The notes under the pieces are model-generated. The model was not told the origin of the DNA, ran no database searches, and saw only the letters and a list, made by a program, of their open reading frames with translations. This document shows, piece after piece, positions 7,820 through 20,512 of a stretch of DNA of 64,000 bases; position 1 is the first letter of the stretch; every line of letters starts with the position of its first letter. Position numbers and translations under genes: made by a program. Source of the stretch: Phytohabitans maris (GTDB lineage Bacteria > Actinomycetota > Actinomycetes > Mycobacteriales > Micromonosporaceae); NCBI RefSeq assembly GCF_031085175.1, contig NZ_JAVHUY010000010.1, positions 124,001 through 188,000 on the forward strand, written 5' to 3'.

Positions 7820-10800
7820 CTAGCCGCCGGTGATCTGGAACTGTGAACCCGGTTCCACCACGATGTTTCCGGCCGCCGAGTTGGTGATGGTGACGTTGGT
7901 CAGCGTCGCGCTGCCCCGGGCGCTGCCCTGCGCCAGGATGCCGGCACCGTTGTTGGACTTGTCGATCCGCACATTCGTGATCGCCACGCCCGGCATGTTG
8001 CCGCCGCCGCCCTTGAACTGGATGCCGTCGTACGTGGAATCCACGATGTCGCTGTCGCGGATGACGACGCCGGTGATGTCCCGTCCCGGGGCGAAGAGCG
8101 TGATCGCGCCAAACTTCTGCTGCTCGCCCCAGAAGACGCCGCCGCATCGGAAGAGCCCGTTGTTGGCGAGCAACGTCGTTCCGGAGAACGGCTGCGGGCT
8201 GTGATCGGTCGCCAGCATGATGCCCGGGTAGTTCATCGTGTCGTAGATCAGGTTGTTTTCCGCGGTGTTTCCATAGCCGCCGTAGATGGCGATACCGTTC
8301 GCCCGCCACGGAAGCTGGATGGTGTTGTTGGTGAAGTGGTTGTCGTGCCCGATGTCCGTCGCGACGTCACGGACGTAGGTGCTCGCCCATACCGCCAGGG
8401 AATCGTCGCCGGTGGTACGGAACGACGAGTTGAAGACCCGCGAGTTCCGGGTGCTGTTGGCGAAGTTGATGCCGTCGGCGTACGTGTTGCGGATCCGCAT
8501 TCCGGTGAACTCGACGCCGTCGCCCGGATTCCAGTACGCGGGGGTGTCCGAGTAGTCACGGCCGACCCAGGCGCCGACGTTGACGTGCTCGATCCAGACG
8601 TTGCTGATCCGCGTGTTCTTGCCCAACCGGCCGTTGATCCCATGGCCCCGGTTGGCCCGGTTGGTGGTCATGCCAAAGATGGCCAGGTCGGATATCTGGG
8701 TGTTGTCGTCGATGTCGAAGCCGACGTTCCCCTCGTGCGGGTGGTTGATGTTGCCGACGACGTTCTGTGGCTCGGTGTTGGTGTAGAGCTTGGTGTGCCA
8801 CATGCCCGCGCCGCGGATCACGGCGTTGCGGATGCCCTTCTGGTTGTACCCTCCCCGGGTCGGGTCCGGCGAGAGGATCTTCTGCTCCTGCCGCCACTCA
8901 CCGGCCGGGATCCAGACGCAGCTGATGACGCCGTTCTCGTCGTCGGTCACGGCCCGCTGGATCGCCGCGCTGTCGTCGATGCCGTCGTTGGCGACCGCAC
9001 CGTACTGGGTGATCGACGTGCAGCCGCTGGGCTGGGACAGCGCCGGCGCCACCTGCTCCAGGTCGATCAGGTCGATGATGTAGAACTGCGCGCCGTCGTT
9101 CGCGTCCCGCTGGAGCTTGAACCGCGTACCCGGCGGATAGCTCTGGCCGAGCAGCGCGTTCGACTCGTCGAAGAGGCGGCGGGCGTTGGCCTGCGGCGAG
9201 TTCGAGAGCCCCTCGGTGTCGTCGGTCGTGCCGTACAGCCAACTGTTGCGGGACGACAGCGTGATCTTCCGGGAGAAGGTGCCGTTGATGTACAGGCTGA
9301 TCGTGGCCTCGATGCCACCGCCACCCGCGGAGTCCGGGATGGAGTTGCGCACCACGATCGAGTTGGCCTGGTTGGTCGAGGTGAACTCGACGTACTGTCC
9401 CGTGCTGTTCAGCCGCACCGACTGGCGTCCCGAAGACTCGGTGGCGAAGTTGGTGTGCCCGAACGTGCGCAGCGGGTCGGCCACCAGCAGCGTGCCCTGG
9501 TAGTCGGCGGCCTCCGCCTCGTACTCGGTGTACGGCACGGCGGCGCCCCGCCCGACCACGATCGAGCGGGCGAGCGAGTTGTTGTTCTCGTTCGTCTCGG
9601 TGACCGCACCGGTCGCGTCGGCGGTGGCCGTGATGGTGGCGCCACCGCTGGTCGCGGTCCAGCTGCCGCTGATCGCCACGTTGACGGTCGCGCCGGCGGC
9701 GATCGAGGCGGTGTTGGTGTTGAGCGTCGTGCCGCCCACCACCACCCGGGTCACCGTGGTCGCGCCGGTCGCGCTGGTGCCGCGGTTGTTGACCGCCACC
9801 GTGAACGTGACGGCGGCACCGACCGCCGGGTTCGCCGGATTGGGGGTGATGCTGGTGACCTGCAGGTCCGGGCCGGGCGCCGGCGCCACCACCAGCGGTG
9901 ACGAGGCGGTGAAGCTGTTGTTGGCGTCGCTCTGCTCGACGACCTGGTCTGCCGGGTCGGCCGTCGCGGTGAGGCTGTAGCTGCCCATCGGCCGCGGGCC
10001 GGCGTTGAACGTGACGGTCGCCGCCGCGCCGGCGGCGAGACCCGCGACCGGCACCGTGCCGGCCACCGCGCCGCCGAGGCTGAAGTTGAGCGTGGTCGCC
10101 GCCGCGGCCGCCGTACCCGAGTTGCGGACCGTGGCCGAGAGGGTGATCGCGGTCGCCTCGTTCGGCGCGGCCGGGCTCCAGCTCGCCGCGGTCACGACCA
10201 GGTCAGGATTGGGCGCCGGGGTGCCGATGACCTGTATCTCGGCGACCTGCCCGCCGGGTGCGCCGCTGTTGGCGGTGAAGCGCAGCCGCACGTCCGCGGT
10301 GCGGCCGGTGACCGGGATCGTCACCGAGTTCTGGTTGACGGACGGGCTGAAGCTGTACGTCCCGCTCGCCTTCAGCGACGTGTACGCGCTCGCGCCCTGG
10401 TCCCGCCCGAGGATCTCGAAGGTCTGGGTGCGCGCGCCCCACACCGAGTCCGGGTTGAGCTTGACCGTGACCGAGGAGATGTCGGCGTTGGCGCCGAGCT
10501 TGACGGTCAGCGTCGCCGGGAAGCCGGCGGACTCCCAGTAGGTGGCGAGGTTGCCGTCGTTTGCGTTGGGCGCCACGAACGTGTGCACGTGTGACGACTC
10601 CTCGACCGGCTTGCCCGCGGCGAGGTCGGTGCCGCCCGGCGGGGTGTCGCCGCCGGCCGTGCCGTACACCTCGAACTCGCTGACCTGCCCGGCCGGCCAC
10701 CCGGTGTTCGCCGTGATGTCGACCCGCACGTACCGGACGCTCGCCGCGGTGAAGTCGATGGTGACCGCGTTGCCGCTCGCCGGGTTGAACACCCGGCCGG

Positions 10801-11155
10801 CCGACGCGGAGAGGGTGCTGAAGCCGGTGCCGTTGGTGCTCCCCTGCACGCTCAGCGTCTGGGTGCGGGTCTCCCAGCCGCTCGGCAGCTTGAGCACGAC
10901 CTGGTCGATGCTGGTGCTGCTGCCGAGGTCGACCTGCACCCACTGGGGCAGCGCGTTGTTGGGGCTCTCCCAGTAGCTGCCCTGGTTGCCGTCGGTGGCG
11001 TTGCCCGCCGTGTAGGGCGAGTTGGACCCGCTGGCCGACGCGGTGCGCCCCGCGGCCAGGTTGGGCCCGCCGGCCGCCGAGGCGGGGCTGGGCGCGAGCC
11101 CGCCGACGACGAGGCCCACGGCGAGAAGCCCGCCGATCAGCTGCATCCGTCTCAT
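7820..11155 (-). CDS. Secreted modular alpha-1,3-glucanase (GH87, mycodextranase/mutanase type)
   Basis: A large exported protein of 1111 residues. In order: signal peptide 1-28 (MQLIGGLLAVGLVVGGLAP then PASA); two F5/8-type discoidin domains, about 30-165 and 175-310 (GNQGSYWESPNNALPQWVQV and NDGNLATYWESAGFPATLTV); two CARDB Ig-like repeats, about 315-425 and 428-530 (VEQSDANNSF, VTETNENNNSL); a beta-sandwich module, about 540-705 (EYEAEAADYQG, SIPDSAGGGG); and a parallel beta-helix catalytic region from about 710 (QYGAVANDGIDDSAAIQRAV, NTYADGINFANSTRNSRV, RTTGDDSLAVWA, GNTAENNLIYDTMNYPGIML). Discoidin plus uncharacterised module plus beta-helix is the layout of GH87 enzymes such as Bacillus Agl-KA; CARDB replaces the usual linker and CBM6. 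It should cut alpha-1,3-glucan of fungal walls or dental-type mutan. A ribosome binding site AAGGGGA precedes the ATG. The gene is monocistronic. Confidence 0.82.
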   Translation of the reverse strand: MRRMQLIGGLLAVGLVVGGLAPSPASAAGGPNLAAGRTASASGSNSPYTAGNATDGNQGSYWESPNNALPQWVQVDLGSSTSIDQVVLKLPSGWETRTQTLSVQGSTNGTGFSTLSASAGRVFNPASGNAVTIDFTAASVRYVRVDITANTGWPAGQVSEFEVYGTAGGDTPPGGTDLAAGKPVEESSHVHTFVAPNANDGNLATYWESAGFPATLTVKLGANADISSVTVKLNPDSVWGARTQTFEILGRDQGASAYTSLKASGTYSFSPSVNQNSVTIPVTGRTADVRLRFTANSGAPGGQVAEIQVIGTPAPNPDLVVTAASWSPAAPNEATAITLSATVRNSGTAAAAATTLNFSLGGAVAGTVPVAGLAAGAAATVTFNAGPRPMGSYSLTATADPADQVVEQSDANNSFTASSPLVVAPAPGPDLQVTSITPNPANPAVGAAVTFTVAVNNRGTSATGATTVTRVVVGGTTLNTNTASIAAGATVNVAISGSWTATSGGATITATADATGAVTETNENNNSLARSIVVGRGAAVPYTEYEAEAADYQGTLLVADPLRTFGHTNFATESSGRQSVRLNSTGQYVEFTSTNQANSIVVRNSIPDSAGGGGIEATISLYINGTFSRKITLSSRNSWLYGTTDDTEGLSNSPQANARRLFDESNALLGQSYPPGTRFKLQRDANDGAQFYIIDLIDLEQVAPALSQPSGCTSITQYGAVANDGIDDSAAIQRAVTDDENGVISCVWIPAGEWRQEQKILSPDPTRGGYNQKGIRNAVIRGAGMWHTKLYTNTEPQNVVGNINHPHEGNVGFDIDDNTQISDLAIFGMTTNRANRGHGINGRLGKNTRISNVWIEHVNVGAWVGRDYSDTPAYWNPGDGVEFTGMRIRNTYADGINFANSTRNSRVFNSSFRTTGDDSLAVWASTYVRDVATDIGHDNHFTNNTIQLPWRANGIAIYGGYGNTAENNLIYDTMNYPGIMLATDHSPQPFSGTTLLANNGLFRCGGVFWGEQQKFGAITLFAPGRDITGVVIRDSDIVDSTYDGIQFKGGGGNMPGVAITNVRIDKSNNGAGILAQGSARGSATLTNVTITNSAAGNIVVEPGSQFQITGG

Positions 11156-15271: not shown

Positions 15272-15957
15272 GAGTGCACCCGCTCCGGCGCGAGCGCGGC
15301 CACCTTGCCGTCGCGGACCATGACGTGCCGGTCCGCGTACGCCGCGACGCGTGCCTCGTGCGTGACCAGCACGACCGTGGTGCCGTGCTCGCGCGCGGCA
15401 CCGACCATCTGGTCCATCACCTGCTCGCCGGTGAGCGAGTCGAGCGAACCGGTCGGCTCGTCGGCGAAGAGCACCTTTGGGCTCGTGACCAGCCCGCGGG
15501 CCAGCGCCACCCGCTGTGCCTGGCCGCCCGAGAGCTCGCCGGAACGGCGGCGCTCCAGCCCGTCGAGCCCGAGCCGGCCGAACCACGGACGGGCCTGGCG
15601 CAGCGCCGCGTCACGCCGGACCCCGCCGAGCAGCAGCGGCAGCGCGACGTTTTCCTCGGCGGTCAGCTCGGGCACGAGCTGGCCGAACTGGAAGACGAAA
15701 CCGAAGCTGTCGCGGCGCAGGGCGCTGCGCCTGGCCTCGTCCATCGTGTCGACCCGGCGGCCGGCGAAGTGGATCTCGCCCTCGTCGGGGACCAGGATGC
15801 CGGCCAGGCAGTGCAGGAGCGTCGACTTGCCCGAGCCGCTCGGACCCATGATGGCCAGGATCTCGCCGGGCGCGACCGCCACGGTGGCACCGCGCAGCGC
15901 GGGCGTCTGCCCGAACGAGCGCACGACGCCACGGGCCTCGATCATCAGGTCACTCAT
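15268..15957 (-). CDS. ABC transporter ATP-binding protein (MacB/LolD type)
   Basis: A 229-residue ATPase. Walker A is IMGPSGSGKSTLLHCLAGIL, the signature LSGGQAQRVALARGLV and Walker B VLFADEPTGSLD, with the switch His in VLVTHEARVAAYADR; all needed residues are present. The insertion around FVFQFGQLVPELTAEENVAL is typical of the LolD/MacB/FtsE group, which work with FtsX-fold permeases, and the permease gene overlaps its stop by 4 bases. The ATG at 15957 shares its A with the PadR stop codon, so the three genes padR-ATPase-permease are translationally coupled. Confidence 0.92.
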   Translation of the reverse strand: MSDLMIEARGVVRSFGQTPALRGATVAVAPGEILAIMGPSGSGKSTLLHCLAGILVPDEGEIHFAGRRVDTMDEARRSALRRDSFGFVFQFGQLVPELTAEENVALPLLLGGVRRDAALRQARPWFGRLGLDGLERRRSGELSGGQAQRVALARGLVTSPKVLFADEPTGSLDSLTGEQVMDQMVGAAREHGTTVVLVTHEARVAAYADRHVMVRDGKVAALAPERVHS

Positions 15958-16493
15958 CACTTCACCACCTCCGCGCGGAGCGCGTCGAGCCGGGCCACGG
16001 TGGTGTCGATCCAGCGCAGGTCGGCCTCCAGGTGGAAGAGGCCGTGGTCGGCGAGCAGCCCGTCGACCAGGCTGCCGCCCCGCCGGATCTCGGTCAGCTG
16101 GCGCATCCGCTCCAGGTGGGCGCCACGCTGGATGTCCAGGTACTCATGGGCGGGGCGGTCGAGCATCAGCGCGAGGACGACCTTGCTGAAGAGCACCGAC
16201 TGGAGGTGCGGCTCGGCCTCGAGCGGCTGGACCAGCCACGCGTCGAACTCGGTCGCCCCCGCCTCGGTGATCACGTAGCGCTTGCGCTCCGGCCCGACCC
16301 CCGGCTGCACCTCGCTGATCACCACTTTGCCGTCCCGGGCCAGCCGCCCGAGCGTGGCATACACCTGACCGAACGGAAGCGGGCGGCCGCGGCCGAAGTA
16401 GGTGTCGTAGTCGCGCTTGAGGTCGTAGCCGTGGCTGGGCTCGCGCTCCAGCAGGCCGAGGAGGGTCAACGGGACGCTCATGCCGAGGAGCAT
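15957..16493 (-). CDS. PadR-family transcriptional regulator
   Basis: A 178-residue PadR protein. The winged HTH (about residues 5-80) reads LTLLGLLEREPSHGYDLKRD then GQVYATLGRLARDGKVVISE and GPERKRYVITEAGATEFDAW. The C-terminal half (about 90-178) is the helical Vir_act_alpha_C-like dimer arm. It is the first gene of a coupled operon with an ABC exporter and lies divergent to the KS-ACP-AOS gene with only 39 bases between the two ATGs, filled by GTATA/TATAC boxes; it probably controls both. The ATG at 16481 (MSVPLTLLG) is an alternative start. PadR proteins usually repress until a small molecule or drug binds. Confidence 0.88.
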   Translation of the reverse strand: MLLGMSVPLTLLGLLEREPSHGYDLKRDYDTYFGRGRPLPFGQVYATLGRLARDGKVVISEVQPGVGPERKRYVITEAGATEFDAWLVQPLEAEPHLQSVLFSKVVLALMLDRPAHEYLDIQRGAHLERMRQLTEIRRGGSLVDGLLADHGLFHLEADLRWIDTTVARLDALRAEVVK

Positions 16494-16502
16494 ACCCCGA
16501 GC

Positions 16503-16535
16503 GTATACATCGCGTATATACCCTCGGAGTATATG
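16503..16535. promoter_or_regulatory. Divergent promoter and probable PadR operator
   Basis: The short AT-rich gap between the padR and KS-ACP-AOS starts carries GTATAC (16503-16508) and an inverted repeat ATATAC (16516-16521) / GTATAT (16529-16534) with a 7-base spacer. These AT-rich boxes stand out in very GC-rich DNA. They could be both the two -10 elements and the PadR binding sites. One of the two transcripts would have almost no leader. Confidence 0.55.
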
Positions 16536-19379
16536 GCCTGGTGGGTGTTTACTCCCCGTGTGACGGGTTCTACGGGGGTAGTGCGTTCACCGGTCGCCAT
16601 CGTTGGTCTGGCCTGCCGTTTTCCGGGTGCGGACGGGCCGGAGGCGTACTGGGAGATGATCCGGGAAGGACGGGTCGCGACCGGTCCGGTGTCGCCGCGC
16701 CGGTGGCGGCACCACCACCTGCACCGGCCGGACGACCCGCGGGCGGCCGACTATGCGTACACGGATGTGGTGGCCCACCTCGACGACGTGGAGAGCTTCA
16801 CAGACGCCGGGTACGGGCTGGCGCCGCGCCGCCTGGAGGTCACCGATCCACAGCACCGGCTGCTGCTCACGCTCACCGGCACGGCACTCGGCGGGCGGGC
16901 GATCGGCGATCCCGAGCGCACCGGCGTGTACGTCGGCGCCTCGGTCAGCGAGTACAAGGACCTGCTCACCAGCCGGGTCCGAGCCGGACAGATGGCGGCC
17001 GGCGACCTCGGCGAGCCACTCGACCCCGAAGCGGCCCGGGCCGCCGTGAGCGGCGTGGTCCCAATGCGCGCGTTCACGATGGCCGGCGCGTTGCTCAACC
17101 TGACCGCGGCCACGATCAGCTCCGCATTCGACCTGCGCGGCCCGAGCCTGGTCGTGGACGCCGCCTGCGCCTCCTCACTGCTGGCCGTGCACGAGGCGGT
17201 GGGACACCTGCGCACCGGCCAGGTCGACCTGGCGGTCGCCGGCGGCGTCTACCTCAACCTGGTGCCGGACAACCTCGTCGCGTTCTCCCGGATCGGCGCT
17301 CTGTCCCGGGCCGGCGCGTGCCGGCCGTTCGACCGGCGGGCGGACGGCTTCGTGCTCGGCGAGGGCGCGGCGGTCGTGCTGCTCAAGCGCCTCGACGATG
17401 CGCTTCGCGACGGCGACCCGGTGTACGGGGTGATCCGCGGCACCGGCTGCGCCAACGACGGCCGCGCCGACGGCCCGATGACCCCGCGCCTCGAAGGCCA
17501 GGTCGCCGCGCTCCGCCGGGCGTACGACGACGCCGGCGTGGAGCCGTACACGGTGGGGTTCGTGGAGTGCCACGGCACCGCCACCCCGGCCGGTGACCGG
17601 GTCGAGCTCGCCGCGCTCCGCGAGGTGTTCGGCGGCGGTGTGCACGTCTCCAGCGTCAAGGCGAACATCGGGCACGCGCTGCCCGCCTCGGGGATCGCCG
17701 GCCTTGTCAAGACGCTGCTGGTGCTGCGCCACGGCGTGATCCCGCCGCAGCCCGGATGCGCGGAGCCGATCCCCAGGCTGGCCGACTTTCGCCTGGCCCA
17801 GCGCCCCGAGCCGTGGGCCGGACCGCGCCGCGCCGCCGTCAACTCGTTCGGCTTCGGCGGTACCAATGTGCACCTCGTCCTTGACGAAGGCTCGCCGGAC
17901 GCCGCCCTCCCCGGGCCGGCGCCGGCGGGTGGCCGCCGGTACTGGGCGGTCACTCCCGGGCTGGACCCGGACCCGCCGGGTCCGTCGCGCGGGCTGCTGG
18001 AGGCGATCGCGGCGGCGAGCGACCACCCGGTCGAGGCGCTCCGGCCGGACCAGGCCCTCGTCGCCGACCTCGGCTTCGACTCGCTCATGCTGCTGGACCT
18101 GGAGGAGAAGCTGGGCCTGGAACGGCTGCCACCCGAGCTGGTGCAGCGGACCACGACGATAGGCGACCTGCAGGCGTGGGTGGCCGCGCGTGCGGAGGCA
18201 CCGGCCGACCCGTGGCCCGAGGTGGCCGCGTTCGCCGAGCGCCGGGGACTGCCACAGCGCCTGGGACTGCCCAACCCGTACTTCGTGGCGCACGACGCGG
18301 CGCTCGGCGCGACGACCACAGTGGACGGTGTCGAGCTGGTCGACTTCTCCGGGTACGACTACCTCGGCCTCGCCACCGACCCGCGTGTCGTCGCCGCGGC
18401 GCGGGAGGCGGTCGAGCGGTACGGCACCTCGGTCTCCGCCAGCCGCCTGACCTCCGGCGAACGGCCACCACACCGCGAGCTGGAGAGGGCGATCGCCGGT
18501 CTGCTCGGCGCCGAGGACGCGCTCGCGATGGTCAGCGGCTACGCCACGAACGTCTCGGTGCTCGGCCACCTGCTCGCCCCCGGCGACCTGGTGCTGCACG
18601 ACGCGTACGCGCACGACAGCATCGTGCAGGGCATCCGGCTCTCCGGCGCGACCCGCCGGGCGTTCCCGCACAACGACCTGGCCGCGCTCGAAGAGGCCCT
18701 TTCCGAACAGGCCGGGCGGCACCGCCGCGTGCTGGTGGCGGTCGAGGGTGTGTACAGCATGGACGGTGACCTGGCCGACCTGCCGGCGCTCGCCGACCTG
18801 CGCCGCCGGTACGGCTTCCTGCTCTACGTCGACGAGGCGCACAGCATCGGCGTGCTAGGCCGCACCGGCCGCGGCGCGGGCGAGCACTGGTCGATCTCGC
18901 CGTCCGATGTGGACATCTGGATGGGCACGCTCTCCAAGGCCCTCGCCAGCTGCGGCGGGTACGTGGCCGCCGGCGCCGCGCTCGTCGACTACCTGCGCTA
19001 CACCACGCCCGGCTTCCTCTTCAGCGTCGGCCTGCCACCGGCGGCGACGGCGGCCGCGCTCGCCGCCGTGCGTACCCTCGCCGCCGAGCCCGAGCGGGTC
19101 GAGCGGCTCCGGGCCAACACCGCCCGCTTCCGGACCGCCGCCGCGGCCCACGGCATCGACACCGGCGGCGGCACCGCACCCGTCATCCCGGTACGCGCCG
19201 GCGGGTCCGCGGAGGCACTGCGGCTGAGCGAGCGGATGCGCCAGCGCGGCGTCAACGTCCAGCCGATCGTGGCCCCGGCCGTGGCGGAGGAGGCGGCACG
19301 GCTGCGCTTCTTCGTCAATGCCACGCACACGGCCGAGCAGATCGACCAGACCGTCGAGGCGCTGCGGCTCAGCCGATGA
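16533..19379 (+). CDS. Ketosynthase-ACP-alpha-oxoamine synthase fusion (PKS with PLP off-loading domain)
   Basis: A 948-residue three-domain protein. Residues about 17-435 are a type I PKS ketosynthase (VAIVGLACRFPGADGPEAYW) with the full catalytic triad: Cys212 in VVDAACASSLLAVH, His347 in ECHGTATPAGD, His381 in VKANIGHALPASG. Residues about 480-545 are an acyl carrier domain with Ser517 in ADLGFDSLMLLDL for the phosphopantetheine arm. Residues about 560-948 are a fold-type I PLP alpha-oxoamine synthase (BioF/HemA/serine palmitoyltransferase group), with VDEAHSIGVLGRTGRGAG (Asp767, His770) and Lys802 in GTLSKALASCGGY as Schiff-base lysine. There is no acyltransferase, ketoreductase or thioesterase, so extender loading must come in trans. 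The AOS domain should condense an amino acid with the acyl-ACP, lose CO2 and release an alpha-amino ketone. Start choice is uncertain: ATG 16533 (CGGAG upstream) or GTG 16560/16581. Confidence 0.88.
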   Translation: MAWWVFTPRVTGSTGVVRSPVAIVGLACRFPGADGPEAYWEMIREGRVATGPVSPRRWRHHHLHRPDDPRAADYAYTDVVAHLDDVESFTDAGYGLAPRRLEVTDPQHRLLLTLTGTALGGRAIGDPERTGVYVGASVSEYKDLLTSRVRAGQMAAGDLGEPLDPEAARAAVSGVVPMRAFTMAGALLNLTAATISSAFDLRGPSLVVDAACASSLLAVHEAVGHLRTGQVDLAVAGGVYLNLVPDNLVAFSRIGALSRAGACRPFDRRADGFVLGEGAAVVLLKRLDDALRDGDPVYGVIRGTGCANDGRADGPMTPRLEGQVAALRRAYDDAGVEPYTVGFVECHGTATPAGDRVELAALREVFGGGVHVSSVKANIGHALPASGIAGLVKTLLVLRHGVIPPQPGCAEPIPRLADFRLAQRPEPWAGPRRAAVNSFGFGGTNVHLVLDEGSPDAALPGPAPAGGRRYWAVTPGLDPDPPGPSRGLLEAIAAASDHPVEALRPDQALVADLGFDSLMLLDLEEKLGLERLPPELVQRTTTIGDLQAWVAARAEAPADPWPEVAAFAERRGLPQRLGLPNPYFVAHDAALGATTTVDGVELVDFSGYDYLGLATDPRVVAAAREAVERYGTSVSASRLTSGERPPHRELERAIAGLLGAEDALAMVSGYATNVSVLGHLLAPGDLVLHDAYAHDSIVQGIRLSGATRRAFPHNDLAALEEALSEQAGRHRRVLVAVEGVYSMDGDLADLPALADLRRRYGFLLYVDEAHSIGVLGRTGRGAGEHWSISPSDVDIWMGTLSKALASCGGYVAAGAALVDYLRYTTPGFLFSVGLPPAATAAALAAVRTLAAEPERVERLRANTARFRTAAAAHGIDTGGGTAPVIPVRAGGSAEALRLSERMRQRGVNVQPIVAPAVAEEAARLRFFVNATHTAEQIDQTVEALRLSR

Positions 19380-19453: not shown

Positions 19454-20512
19454 ATGGGCCTCACGATCGGCTACAAGGCGTCGGCGGAGCAGTTCGGGCC
19501 ACGGCAGCTCGTCGAGTACGCCGTGCGGGCGGAAGAGGTCGGCTTGGACAGTGTCTTCGCGTCGGACCACTTCCTGCCCTGGCGGCACGAGGGCGGGCAC
19601 GCGCCGTTCGCGCTGTCCTGGATGGCGGCGGTGGGTGAGCGGACCCGGCGGGTGAAGATCGGCACGAGCGTGCTGACCCCCACGTTCCGGTACAACCCGG
19701 CGGTGATCGCCCAGGCGTTCGCGACGATGGCGCTGCTCTCCGACCATCGGGTGCTGCTCGGTGTGGGCACCGGCGAGGCGCTCAACGAGATCGCGGTCTC
19801 CGGCCTCACCTGGCCGGAGTTCAAGGAGCGCTTCGCCCGGCTGCGGGAGGCCGTGCGGCTCATCCGCGACCTGTGGACCAAGGACGAGGTCAGCTTCGAC
19901 GGCGAGTTCTACAAGCTGGTCAACGCCAGCATCTACGACCGCCCCGAGCGGCCGGTGCCGATATACGTCGCGGCGGGTGGTCCGCTGGTCGCGAAGTACG
20001 CCGGCCGGTCCGGCGACGGGTTCATCTGCACCTCCGGCAAGGGCATGGACCTGTACACGGAGAAGCTGATGCCCGCGGTGGCCGAGGGTGCCGCGGCGGC
20101 CGGCCGCGACGCGGGCCAGATCGACAAGATGATCGAGATCAAGCTGTCGTACGACCGGGACCACGAGGCCGCCCTGGAAAACACCCGCTTCTGGGCGCCG
20201 CTCTCGCTGACCGCCGAGCAGAAGCACACCGTCGACAGCGCCCTGGAGATGGAACGCCTCGCCGACGAGCTTCCGATCGAGCAGGTCGCGAAGCGGTGGA
20301 TCGTGGCCTCCGACCCGGACGAGGCGCTCGCCCAGATCAAGCCGTACGTCGACGCCGGCCTCAACCACCTGGTCTTCCACGGTCCCGGGCACGACCAGGA
20401 GCGGTTCCTGACCCAGTTTGCCGAGGACCTGCTGCCAAGGCTGCGCGCCCTAGGCTCCTCTGGCACCACGGCACGCCCAACGTCGGCGCAGATCAGGTCA
20501 GCAGCTTCGTGA
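19454..20512 (+). CDS. fgd: F420-dependent glucose-6-phosphate dehydrogenase
   Basis: A 352-residue luciferase-like (LLM) TIM-barrel enzyme that oxidises glucose 6-phosphate to 6-phosphogluconolactone and reduces coenzyme F420, feeding F420H2 to other reductases. The match to mycobacterial FGD1 is close over the whole length: [95 protein letters not shown] and [16 protein letters not shown]. The ATG at 19454 has GGGAGGGACGGCA before it. It follows the KS-ACP-AOS gene by 74 bases in the same direction and could be read through from it, though fgd is normally a housekeeping gene. The C-terminus overlaps the converging TetR gene by 20 bases. Confidence 0.95.

Follow-up and report, generated by a model that had tools for sequence, protein, structure and literature searches.

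An acyltransferase-less ketosynthase-ACP-α-oxoamine synthase fusion in Phytohabitans maris, a possible terminal module of a small lipid-amine pathway

The locus and its fusion gene

The stretch of DNA considered here, hereafter the window, comprises 64,000 nucleotides (64 kb) of the Phytohabitans maris genome (assembly GCF_031085175.1, contig NZ_JAVHUY010000010.1, positions 124,001 to 188,000), and contains a gene in which a ketosynthase (KS), an acyl carrier protein (ACP) and an α-oxoamine synthase (AOS) domain follow one another in a single frame, with no acyltransferase (AT) recognised between them. This gene probably acts at the end of a small pathway to lipid amines, and is not a pathway by itself. 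Its features are the following:

16533..19379, forward strand: KS-ACP-AOS fusion gene, 948 amino acids, alternative starts 16545, 16560 and 16581 (translation, Pfam, NCBIfam and the ratio of nonsynonymous to synonymous substitution rates, dN/dS)
16587..17897, forward strand: ketosynthase domain, residues ~19-455, with Cys212, His347 and His381 (Pfam, residue check, alignment, PDB comparison)
17898..17990, forward strand: short KS-ACP junction, residues 456-486, containing RRYWAV, a putative AT-excision scar (alignment with AT-bearing relatives)
17991..18182, forward strand: ACP domain, residues 487-550, with Ser517 within DLGFDSL (Pfam, residue check)
18309..19364, forward strand: AOS domain of the BioF/serine palmitoyltransferase-like type, dependent on pyridoxal phosphate (PLP), residues 593-944, with Asp767, His770 and Lys802 (Pfam, NCBIfam, PDB comparison, residue check)

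An earlier reading of this DNA from its letters alone (the sequence-only reading) had described a complete KS, an ACP and a BioF-like PLP domain in one open frame, with seven named residues and without AT, ketoreductase (KR), dehydratase (DH) or thioesterase (TE), and this description is borne out. Thus, the translation contains zero internal stops, and Pfam recovers the KS (ketoacyl-synt, residues 19-290, 221 bits; Ketoacyl-synt_C, 298-407, 121 bits), the ACP (PP-binding, 488-549, 21.0 bits, barely above the cut-off of 20.8) and the AOS (Aminotran_1_2, PF00155, 602-944, 177 bits), no family of AT, KR, DH or TE matching the protein at E ≤ 0.001. Cys212, His347, His381, Ser517, Asp767, His770 and Lys802 are all found at the positions that had been named, and are invariant in eight aligned sequences (the window protein and seven homologues). 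The orthologues described below start closer to the last two of the four in-frame start candidates, and the choice of start touches no domain.

With a fold-type I PLP domain in which the catalytic Lys, the Asp and the stacking His are present, the protein belongs to the AOS family, and this membership supports the proposal of the sequence-only reading that the chain would be released as an α-amino ketone. The best solved match of the AOS part is serine palmitoyltransferase 3a2b (E 9e-73), followed by enzymes of the BioF/KBL type; as for its subtype, no cut-off is reached among the 25 NCBIfam families shown, bioF coming closest (366 vs 426 bits). The KS carries the Cys-His-His triad of elongating type I polyketide synthase (PKS) ketosynthases. 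Lacking an AT between KS and ACP, the protein falls outside the cis-AT KS-AT-ACP-AOS definition, and it shares the absence of an AT from the module with trans-AT PKSs. In a tree without a curated trans-AT KS set, its KS falls among those linked to an AOS, several of which come with an AT. An argument for a trans-AT origin of the KS from its top PDB hit, 7zma, was dropped: the match to 7zma is spread over three stretches from two KSs, and the best single stretch reaches 187 bits against the window KS, less than many other PKSs score over the whole chain.

Orthologues, distribution and selection

Two orthologues were found, one in Planosporangium thailandense (locus L012, genome G076; 71% identity), in agreement with the Micromonosporaceae setting that had been envisaged for the gene, and another in genome G140 (70% identity). 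BLAST and alignment place KS, ACP and AOS in the same order and in one frame in both of them; in the G140 protein Pfam detects KS and AOS, the ACP falling short of the E 0.001 threshold. Among the best 80 loci kept from a wide search of genome contigs, in which more loci matched, only L012 is a full-length match with the KS-ACP-AOS architecture. When four candidates per genome were scored in 200 Micromonosporaceae genomes, 18 genomes matched at E ≤ 1e-130, three of which carry the fusion (that of P. maris itself, G076 and G140), while in the remaining 15 the match is to the AOS only, in frames of 1534-1692 amino acids, so that longer relatives of the fusion protein are not rare. Within the genus, one of six genomes has the fusion gene at E ≤ 1e-100. 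A sample of the order gave two matching genomes out of 200 at E ≤ 1e-145, namely that of P. maris and G140, and a sample of the class, with two candidates scored per genome, gave 13 out of 345 at E ≤ 1e-115, no further orthologue being present among the other 12.

Purifying selection acts on each of the three domains, KS, ACP and AOS, the dN/dS of each, calculated by the NG86 method between the window gene and both orthologues, being 0.27-0.42. The 31-residue KS-ACP junction, by contrast, is not conserved, with values of 1.31 and 0.40 against the two orthologues. The sequence-only reading had left room for a frameshift, or for an AT hidden by sequencing; both were ruled out as unlikely, since the frame is intact and two orthologues keep the same order of domains in one frame.

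The five-gene cassette of the orthologues

In both orthologous loci, the fusion gene is the last of five genes on the same strand, which encode a ligase resembling fatty acyl-AMP ligases (FAALs), a methyltransferase resembling cyclopropane synthases (CMAS-like), a free ACP, an acyl-ACP-desaturase-like protein and the KS-ACP-AOS protein. The genes are tightly coupled, with stop/start overlaps (TGATG, GTGA, ATGA) and a single short gap ahead of the ACP, and the four partners are 75-88% identical between the L012 and G140 loci; they were typed by Pfam on the G140 copies and by BLAST on those of Planosporangium. The nearest solved structures to the ligase are FAALs (3pbk, E 7e-87), the first coumarate-CoA ligase appearing at E 1e-33. 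The methyltransferase belongs to the CMAS family (PF02353, 193 bits vs 27) and matches the cyclopropane fatty acid (CFA) synthase 5z9o at E 5e-31, passing no NCBIfam CFA equivalog cut-off. The desaturase-like protein belongs to the acyl-ACP desaturase family (PF03405, 64 bits vs a cut-off of 22.7, G140 copy); it matches stearoyl-ACP desaturase 1afr at E 9e-8 only, with the diiron motifs EExxH, QE and DExxH agreeing in the aligned part. In a search of six genomes other than that of the window with this protein, G140 and G076 gave strong matches and four gave remote ones only (25-31%).

These arrangements modify what had been proposed for the gene. The idea of a distinct one-protein pathway does not fit two of the three known members, in which the fusion gene closes a row of five coupled genes, only the window copy being solo; a small aminoketone product is likewise doubtful, as its neighbours in the cassette resemble enzymes of fatty-acid metabolism.

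As a separate observation, a gene for a lipid kinase of the YegS/diacylglycerol-kinase type (L012, 12976-13959) lies immediately after the Planosporangium fusion gene. It has no counterpart among the G140 genes compared, where a gene for an LCM-type methyltransferase follows.

AT-bearing relatives and the origin of the AT-less form

Actinobacteria (Actinoplanes and others) contain KS-AT-ACP-AOS proteins whose KS and AOS are, respectively, 36-53% and 52-63% identical to those of the window protein, and some of which have a FAAL-like neighbour; to our knowledge, none of them has a known product. Unlike the window protein they retain an AT, detected by Pfam in four of the five scanned (L131, L135, L144, L134), the fifth being the AT-less L142. 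The PP-binding family reaches E 0.001 only in L135 and L134, and by BLAST L142 has an ACP, L131 part of one and L144 none. Three other loci, L051, L075 and L089, are KS-AT-ACP-KR-DH-AOS by Pfam, AT being present in all three and DH partial in L089.

In a midpoint-rooted KS tree of 36 rows, the window protein and its two orthologues form a group with support 100/100, nested in a 20-row set (97/92) in which Pfam finds an AT in L131, L135 and L144 and none in L142, not every row having been checked in this way; one of these rows, L140, comes from a contig that ends before any AOS. The next group outward consists of the AT-bearing L051, L075 and L089. Support for the trio's immediate sister is poor (85/75), and in an AOS tree of 98 rows the trio is again a clade of its own (100/100) with no well supported sister. 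It is the placement in the KS tree that argues for loss of the AT rather than its gain.

Between the motif at the end of the KS and that of the ACP lie 64, 79 and 86 amino acids in the trio (64 in the window protein), compared with 522-728 in six relatives judged AT-bearing; this distance could be measured in 11 of 23 rows, 12 lacking a match to a motif pattern. Four of these six were so judged by Pfam (L131, L051, L075, L089) and two by the GHSxG motif only (L132, L138), which is a poor AT test, as it misses the Pfam-positive L131. The junction of the trio retains 'RYWAV', which aligns with a 'YW' stretch behind the AT of the relatives that we take to be the post-AT linker. The alignment and the KS tree together suggest that the AT was excised cleanly from a KS-AT-ACP-AOS ancestor, with 'RYWAV' left as a scar. 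In L142 and L133 the same distance is 246 and 235 amino acids. These two pair with support 100/100 in the KS tree (L142 was scanned with Pfam, L133 was not), and seem to represent a second, separate loss in which the linker was kept. The comparison suggests that a clean loss of the AT can happen repeatedly in PKS modules of the KS-AT-ACP-AOS type.

Two observations on neighbours may be added. The AT-less KS-(linker)-ACP-AOS genes of L142 (7119-10742) and L133 (9853-14475), from one shared genus, adjoin a regulator-like gene and one that, by eye, looks like a metallopeptidase. In L131 (7796-8524), a gene that by eye resembles those of phosphopantetheinyl transferases directly adjoins the KS-AT-ACP-AOS gene.

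The wider AOS family

The best 80 loci comprise 60 with FAAL and AOS in one frame, seven with KS and AOS in one frame, nine with separate KS and AOS frames and four with the AOS alone or truncated. FAAL-like genes also adjoin other AOS-PKS genes (L051, L075, L089 and L134, whose AT is seen by Pfam, and L138 and L139, where it rests on the GHSxG motif only). In L051, a metagenome-assembled genome of Polyangiaceae, the order FAAL-CMAS-ACP-PKS/AOS is repeated, with a CMAS 60% identical to that of the cassette. Since FAAL-like genes and FAAL-AOS frames recur in the family, fatty-acid-derived amino ketones are the likely product class. A gene for an MMPL-type transporter is present, some kilobases off in places, in 12 of 26 AOS-PKS loci (L050, L054, L062, L076, L132, L137, L138, L141, L144, L145, L146, L152), and not in the trio; that of L152 is annotated as MMPL, and the others cluster with it by BLAST. 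Such genes suggest that lipid products are exported.

Elsewhere in the family, separate AOS and KS genes lie on a plasmid of Streptomyces sp. NBC_01351 (L092, 8981-23231) with genes for KAS III, MaoC, AMP-binding and ACP proteins, an ectoine-synthase-like protein and TrpA/TrpF/TrpC-like proteins. A pair of annotated AOS-type and KS genes occurs on six Streptomyces plasmids (H1-H6), of which H1 alone was looked into.

Proposed mechanism and known systems

For the module itself, the reading we favour, although we regard it as evenly poised, is that of an AT-less terminal module, in which the KS would accept an acyl group from a partner ACP and extend it by a malonate unit that is loaded in trans, before the AOS releases an α-amino-β'-diketone. 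Thus, in the organisms with the cassette, the FAAL-like ligase would load a fatty acid onto the free ACP, the desaturase-like protein would introduce a double bond, and the CMAS-like enzyme would convert it into a cyclopropane or a methyl branch. The acyl group would then pass from the free ACP to Cys212 of the KS; malonyl on the internal ACP (Ser517), loaded in trans, probably by FabD of the fatty acid synthase, would be decarboxylated and condensed with it; FabD is able to load the ACPs of PigH. In a final, decarboxylative condensation with an amino acid (by analogy serine or glycine), the AOS would turn the β-ketoacyl-ACP into an α-amino-β'-diketone that may cyclise to a pyrrolinone. In P. 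maris, whose genome yielded no close relative of the cassette ligase, methyltransferase or desaturase, the acyl group for the same module must presumably come from an unlinked pool of ACP or CoA. In a compact actinobacterial pathway, a fatty acid might undergo activation, desaturation and cyclopropanation on a free carrier protein and be released by the AT-less KS-ACP-AOS protein as a cyclopropane fatty α-amino ketone, which would be a new lipid of the sphingoid-like or alkyl-pyrrolinone type; in this reading, which we consider doubtful as a whole, the AOS module would have lost its AT on at least two occasions.

Closest in logic is the PigJ/PigH pair of prodigiosin biosynthesis (RedX and RedN in undecylprodiginine), where PigH has tandem ACPs. 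The sources describe malonyl on the ACP, condensation by the KS and subsequent condensation by the AOS with serine (PMC6667630, PMC11188435), that is, a KS working with an ACP-AOS on malonate and an amino acid. The comparison, made by description and not by sequence, also shows differences: PigJ and PigH are separate proteins acting on a pyrrolyl starter, whereas KS, one ACP and AOS share one chain in the window protein, and fatty-acid-type genes stand beside its two orthologues. Elongation is favoured since the KS triad is intact and this precedent exists.

RedL, of undecylprodiginine biosynthesis, combines fatty acyl activation (A-ACP), KS, AT, ACP and AOS in a single chain. By that definition the window protein, whose chain has neither AMP-binding domain nor AT, is not RedL-like, and in the orthologues the ligase and the ACP are encoded separately; the cassette of FAAL, ACP and KS-ACP-AOS looks like RedL taken apart. 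From a dodecanoyl group RedL forms 4-keto-2-undecylpyrroline: its KS extends the fatty acyl starter on an ACP, and its AOS releases the chain with glycine (PMC12654105, PMC11188435).

A different role of the KS, the main rival of elongation, has to be weighed here. It could be a mere transfer station, passing a finished acyl group (e.g., cyclopropanated) from the free ACP to the fused one without elongation, and the product would be a simple acyl α-amino ketone, or a 3-ketosphinganine-like base if serine were used. The AT and its linker are indeed gone, no AT was found among the ten neighbour proteins scanned, and KS-free loading of an AOS is common, as the 60 loci with FAAL and AOS in one frame illustrate. 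However, all three catalytic residues of the KS are retained, while non-elongating trans-AT KSs usually lose the histidine of HGTGT, and the AT-bearing relatives presumably elongate. On the side of transfer, PfSgaB, an AOS with a strong preference for L-serine, converts acyl-CoAs and L-serine into 3-ketosphinganines (PMC12134224), its sequence not having been compared with the window AOS. In eight loci where PKS and AOS are encoded by two genes, in the manner of SgaAB, the AOS is 51-58% identical to that of the window. PigJ/PigH is by contrast a described elongating precedent with separate KS and ACP-AOS. Transfer alone is therefore rather unlikely in our estimation, and of the two alternatives that the sequence-only reading had left side by side, elongation or direct loading, the retained triad leans to elongation.

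Several observations weigh against the elongating cassette scheme. Many AOS proteins are fused to a FAAL without any KS, as in those 60 of the best 80 loci. The cassette ligase is ~20 residues shorter where the best FAAL has an insertion (a break in the alignment), and it reaches none of the 25 NCBIfam cut-offs shown. L051 has a CMAS but no recognisable desaturase relative nearby, so that the desaturation and CMAS steps need not go together. The loading of malonyl in trans is assumed, as no AT is found among the ten neighbour proteins scanned with Pfam. Moreover, the P. maris genome gives no desaturase match to the cassette query, holds only a 32%-identical paralogue of the cassette methyltransferase, and has adenylating enzymes only 30-43% identical to the cassette ligase; with no close relatives of these three enzymes, the cassette scheme does not apply directly to it.

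SgaAB of Pseudomonas fluorescens MYb115, which makes PKS-derived sphinganines, is alike in that a PKS feeds an L-serine-using AOS, but consists of separate genes for a large iterative PKS and an AOS, as opposed to the one-chain window protein (again by description and not by sequence). The FAAL-ACP-AOS proteins, mostly of planctomycetes, combine fatty-acid activation and AOS in one chain and lack a KS. The parts, and the logic of KS plus ACP-AOS, are thus already known, while the fused AT-less form and the CMAS/desaturase cassette were not found described; literature judged by title and the start of the abstract yielded no description of either, which is weak evidence of absence given poor coverage of subscription journals. 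The protein would offer a minimal release module, fused into one chain, for the making of fatty amino ketones, and the orthologues' cassette, with its five genes, is small enough for expression as a whole, by which the lipid, and the question of elongation versus transfer, could be settled.

Genomic setting of the window copy

The following features surround the fusion gene in the window:

15957..16493, reverse strand: PadR-family regulator, divergent, a possible regulator of the fusion gene (Pfam)
16492..16534, no strand: GTATA/ATAC repeats with 13-bp spacing between the PadR and fusion genes, a candidate operator (repeat analysis)
19454..20512, forward strand: next gene downstream, for F420-dependent glucose-6-phosphate dehydrogenase, regarded as housekeeping and outside the pathway (TIGR03554, 591 bits vs a cut-off of 420)

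An ABC transporter (ATPase and FtsX-like permease by Pfam) lies upstream, divergent, alongside the PadR gene. Between the divergent starts, three copies of an ATAC...GTATA sequence, 69-100% similar, make up the repeats, which are a candidate PadR operator. The downstream gene, which looks luciferase-like, was rejected as a tailoring enzyme, as it passes the dehydrogenase cut-off given above. Pfam found no AT, ligase, desaturase or methyltransferase family in ten proteins around the fusion gene, a part of the 64-kb window, and for this reason, together with the probable housekeeping role of the downstream gene, the fusion gene is read as solo in the window.

This setting would agree with a window copy functionally apart from its cassette orthologues, a stand-alone synthase of a signal-like aminoketone, acting on acyl-ACP or acyl-CoA of primary metabolism under PadR control. 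The solo context, the purifying selection on the coding sequence, the repeats common to the PadR and fusion-gene starts, and the lack, elsewhere in the genome, of close relatives of the ligase, desaturase or CMAS, in a search that did not extend to the free ACP, are in its favour. However, the cassette is missing from what is a draft assembly (95 contigs, completeness 97%), its place could be taken by a ligase or ACP that has diverged, and the regulatory link to PadR is itself inferred only, and we consider such a synthase unlikely.

The same absences, and the presence of the gene in only one of the six genomes of the genus, could also be expected of a stranded, non-functional relic of a cassette lost from the lineage. 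The intact frame, the full set of catalytic residues and the dN/dS of 0.27-0.42 per domain, a pairwise measure that would miss a recent loss of function, speak against a relic, which we find improbable. A terminal module fed from an unlinked acyl pool remains the preferred reading for the window copy.

Farther upstream in the window (7820-11155, reverse strand), Pfam identifies a large enzyme of the alpha-1,3-glucanase type with F5/8 C and CARDB domains.

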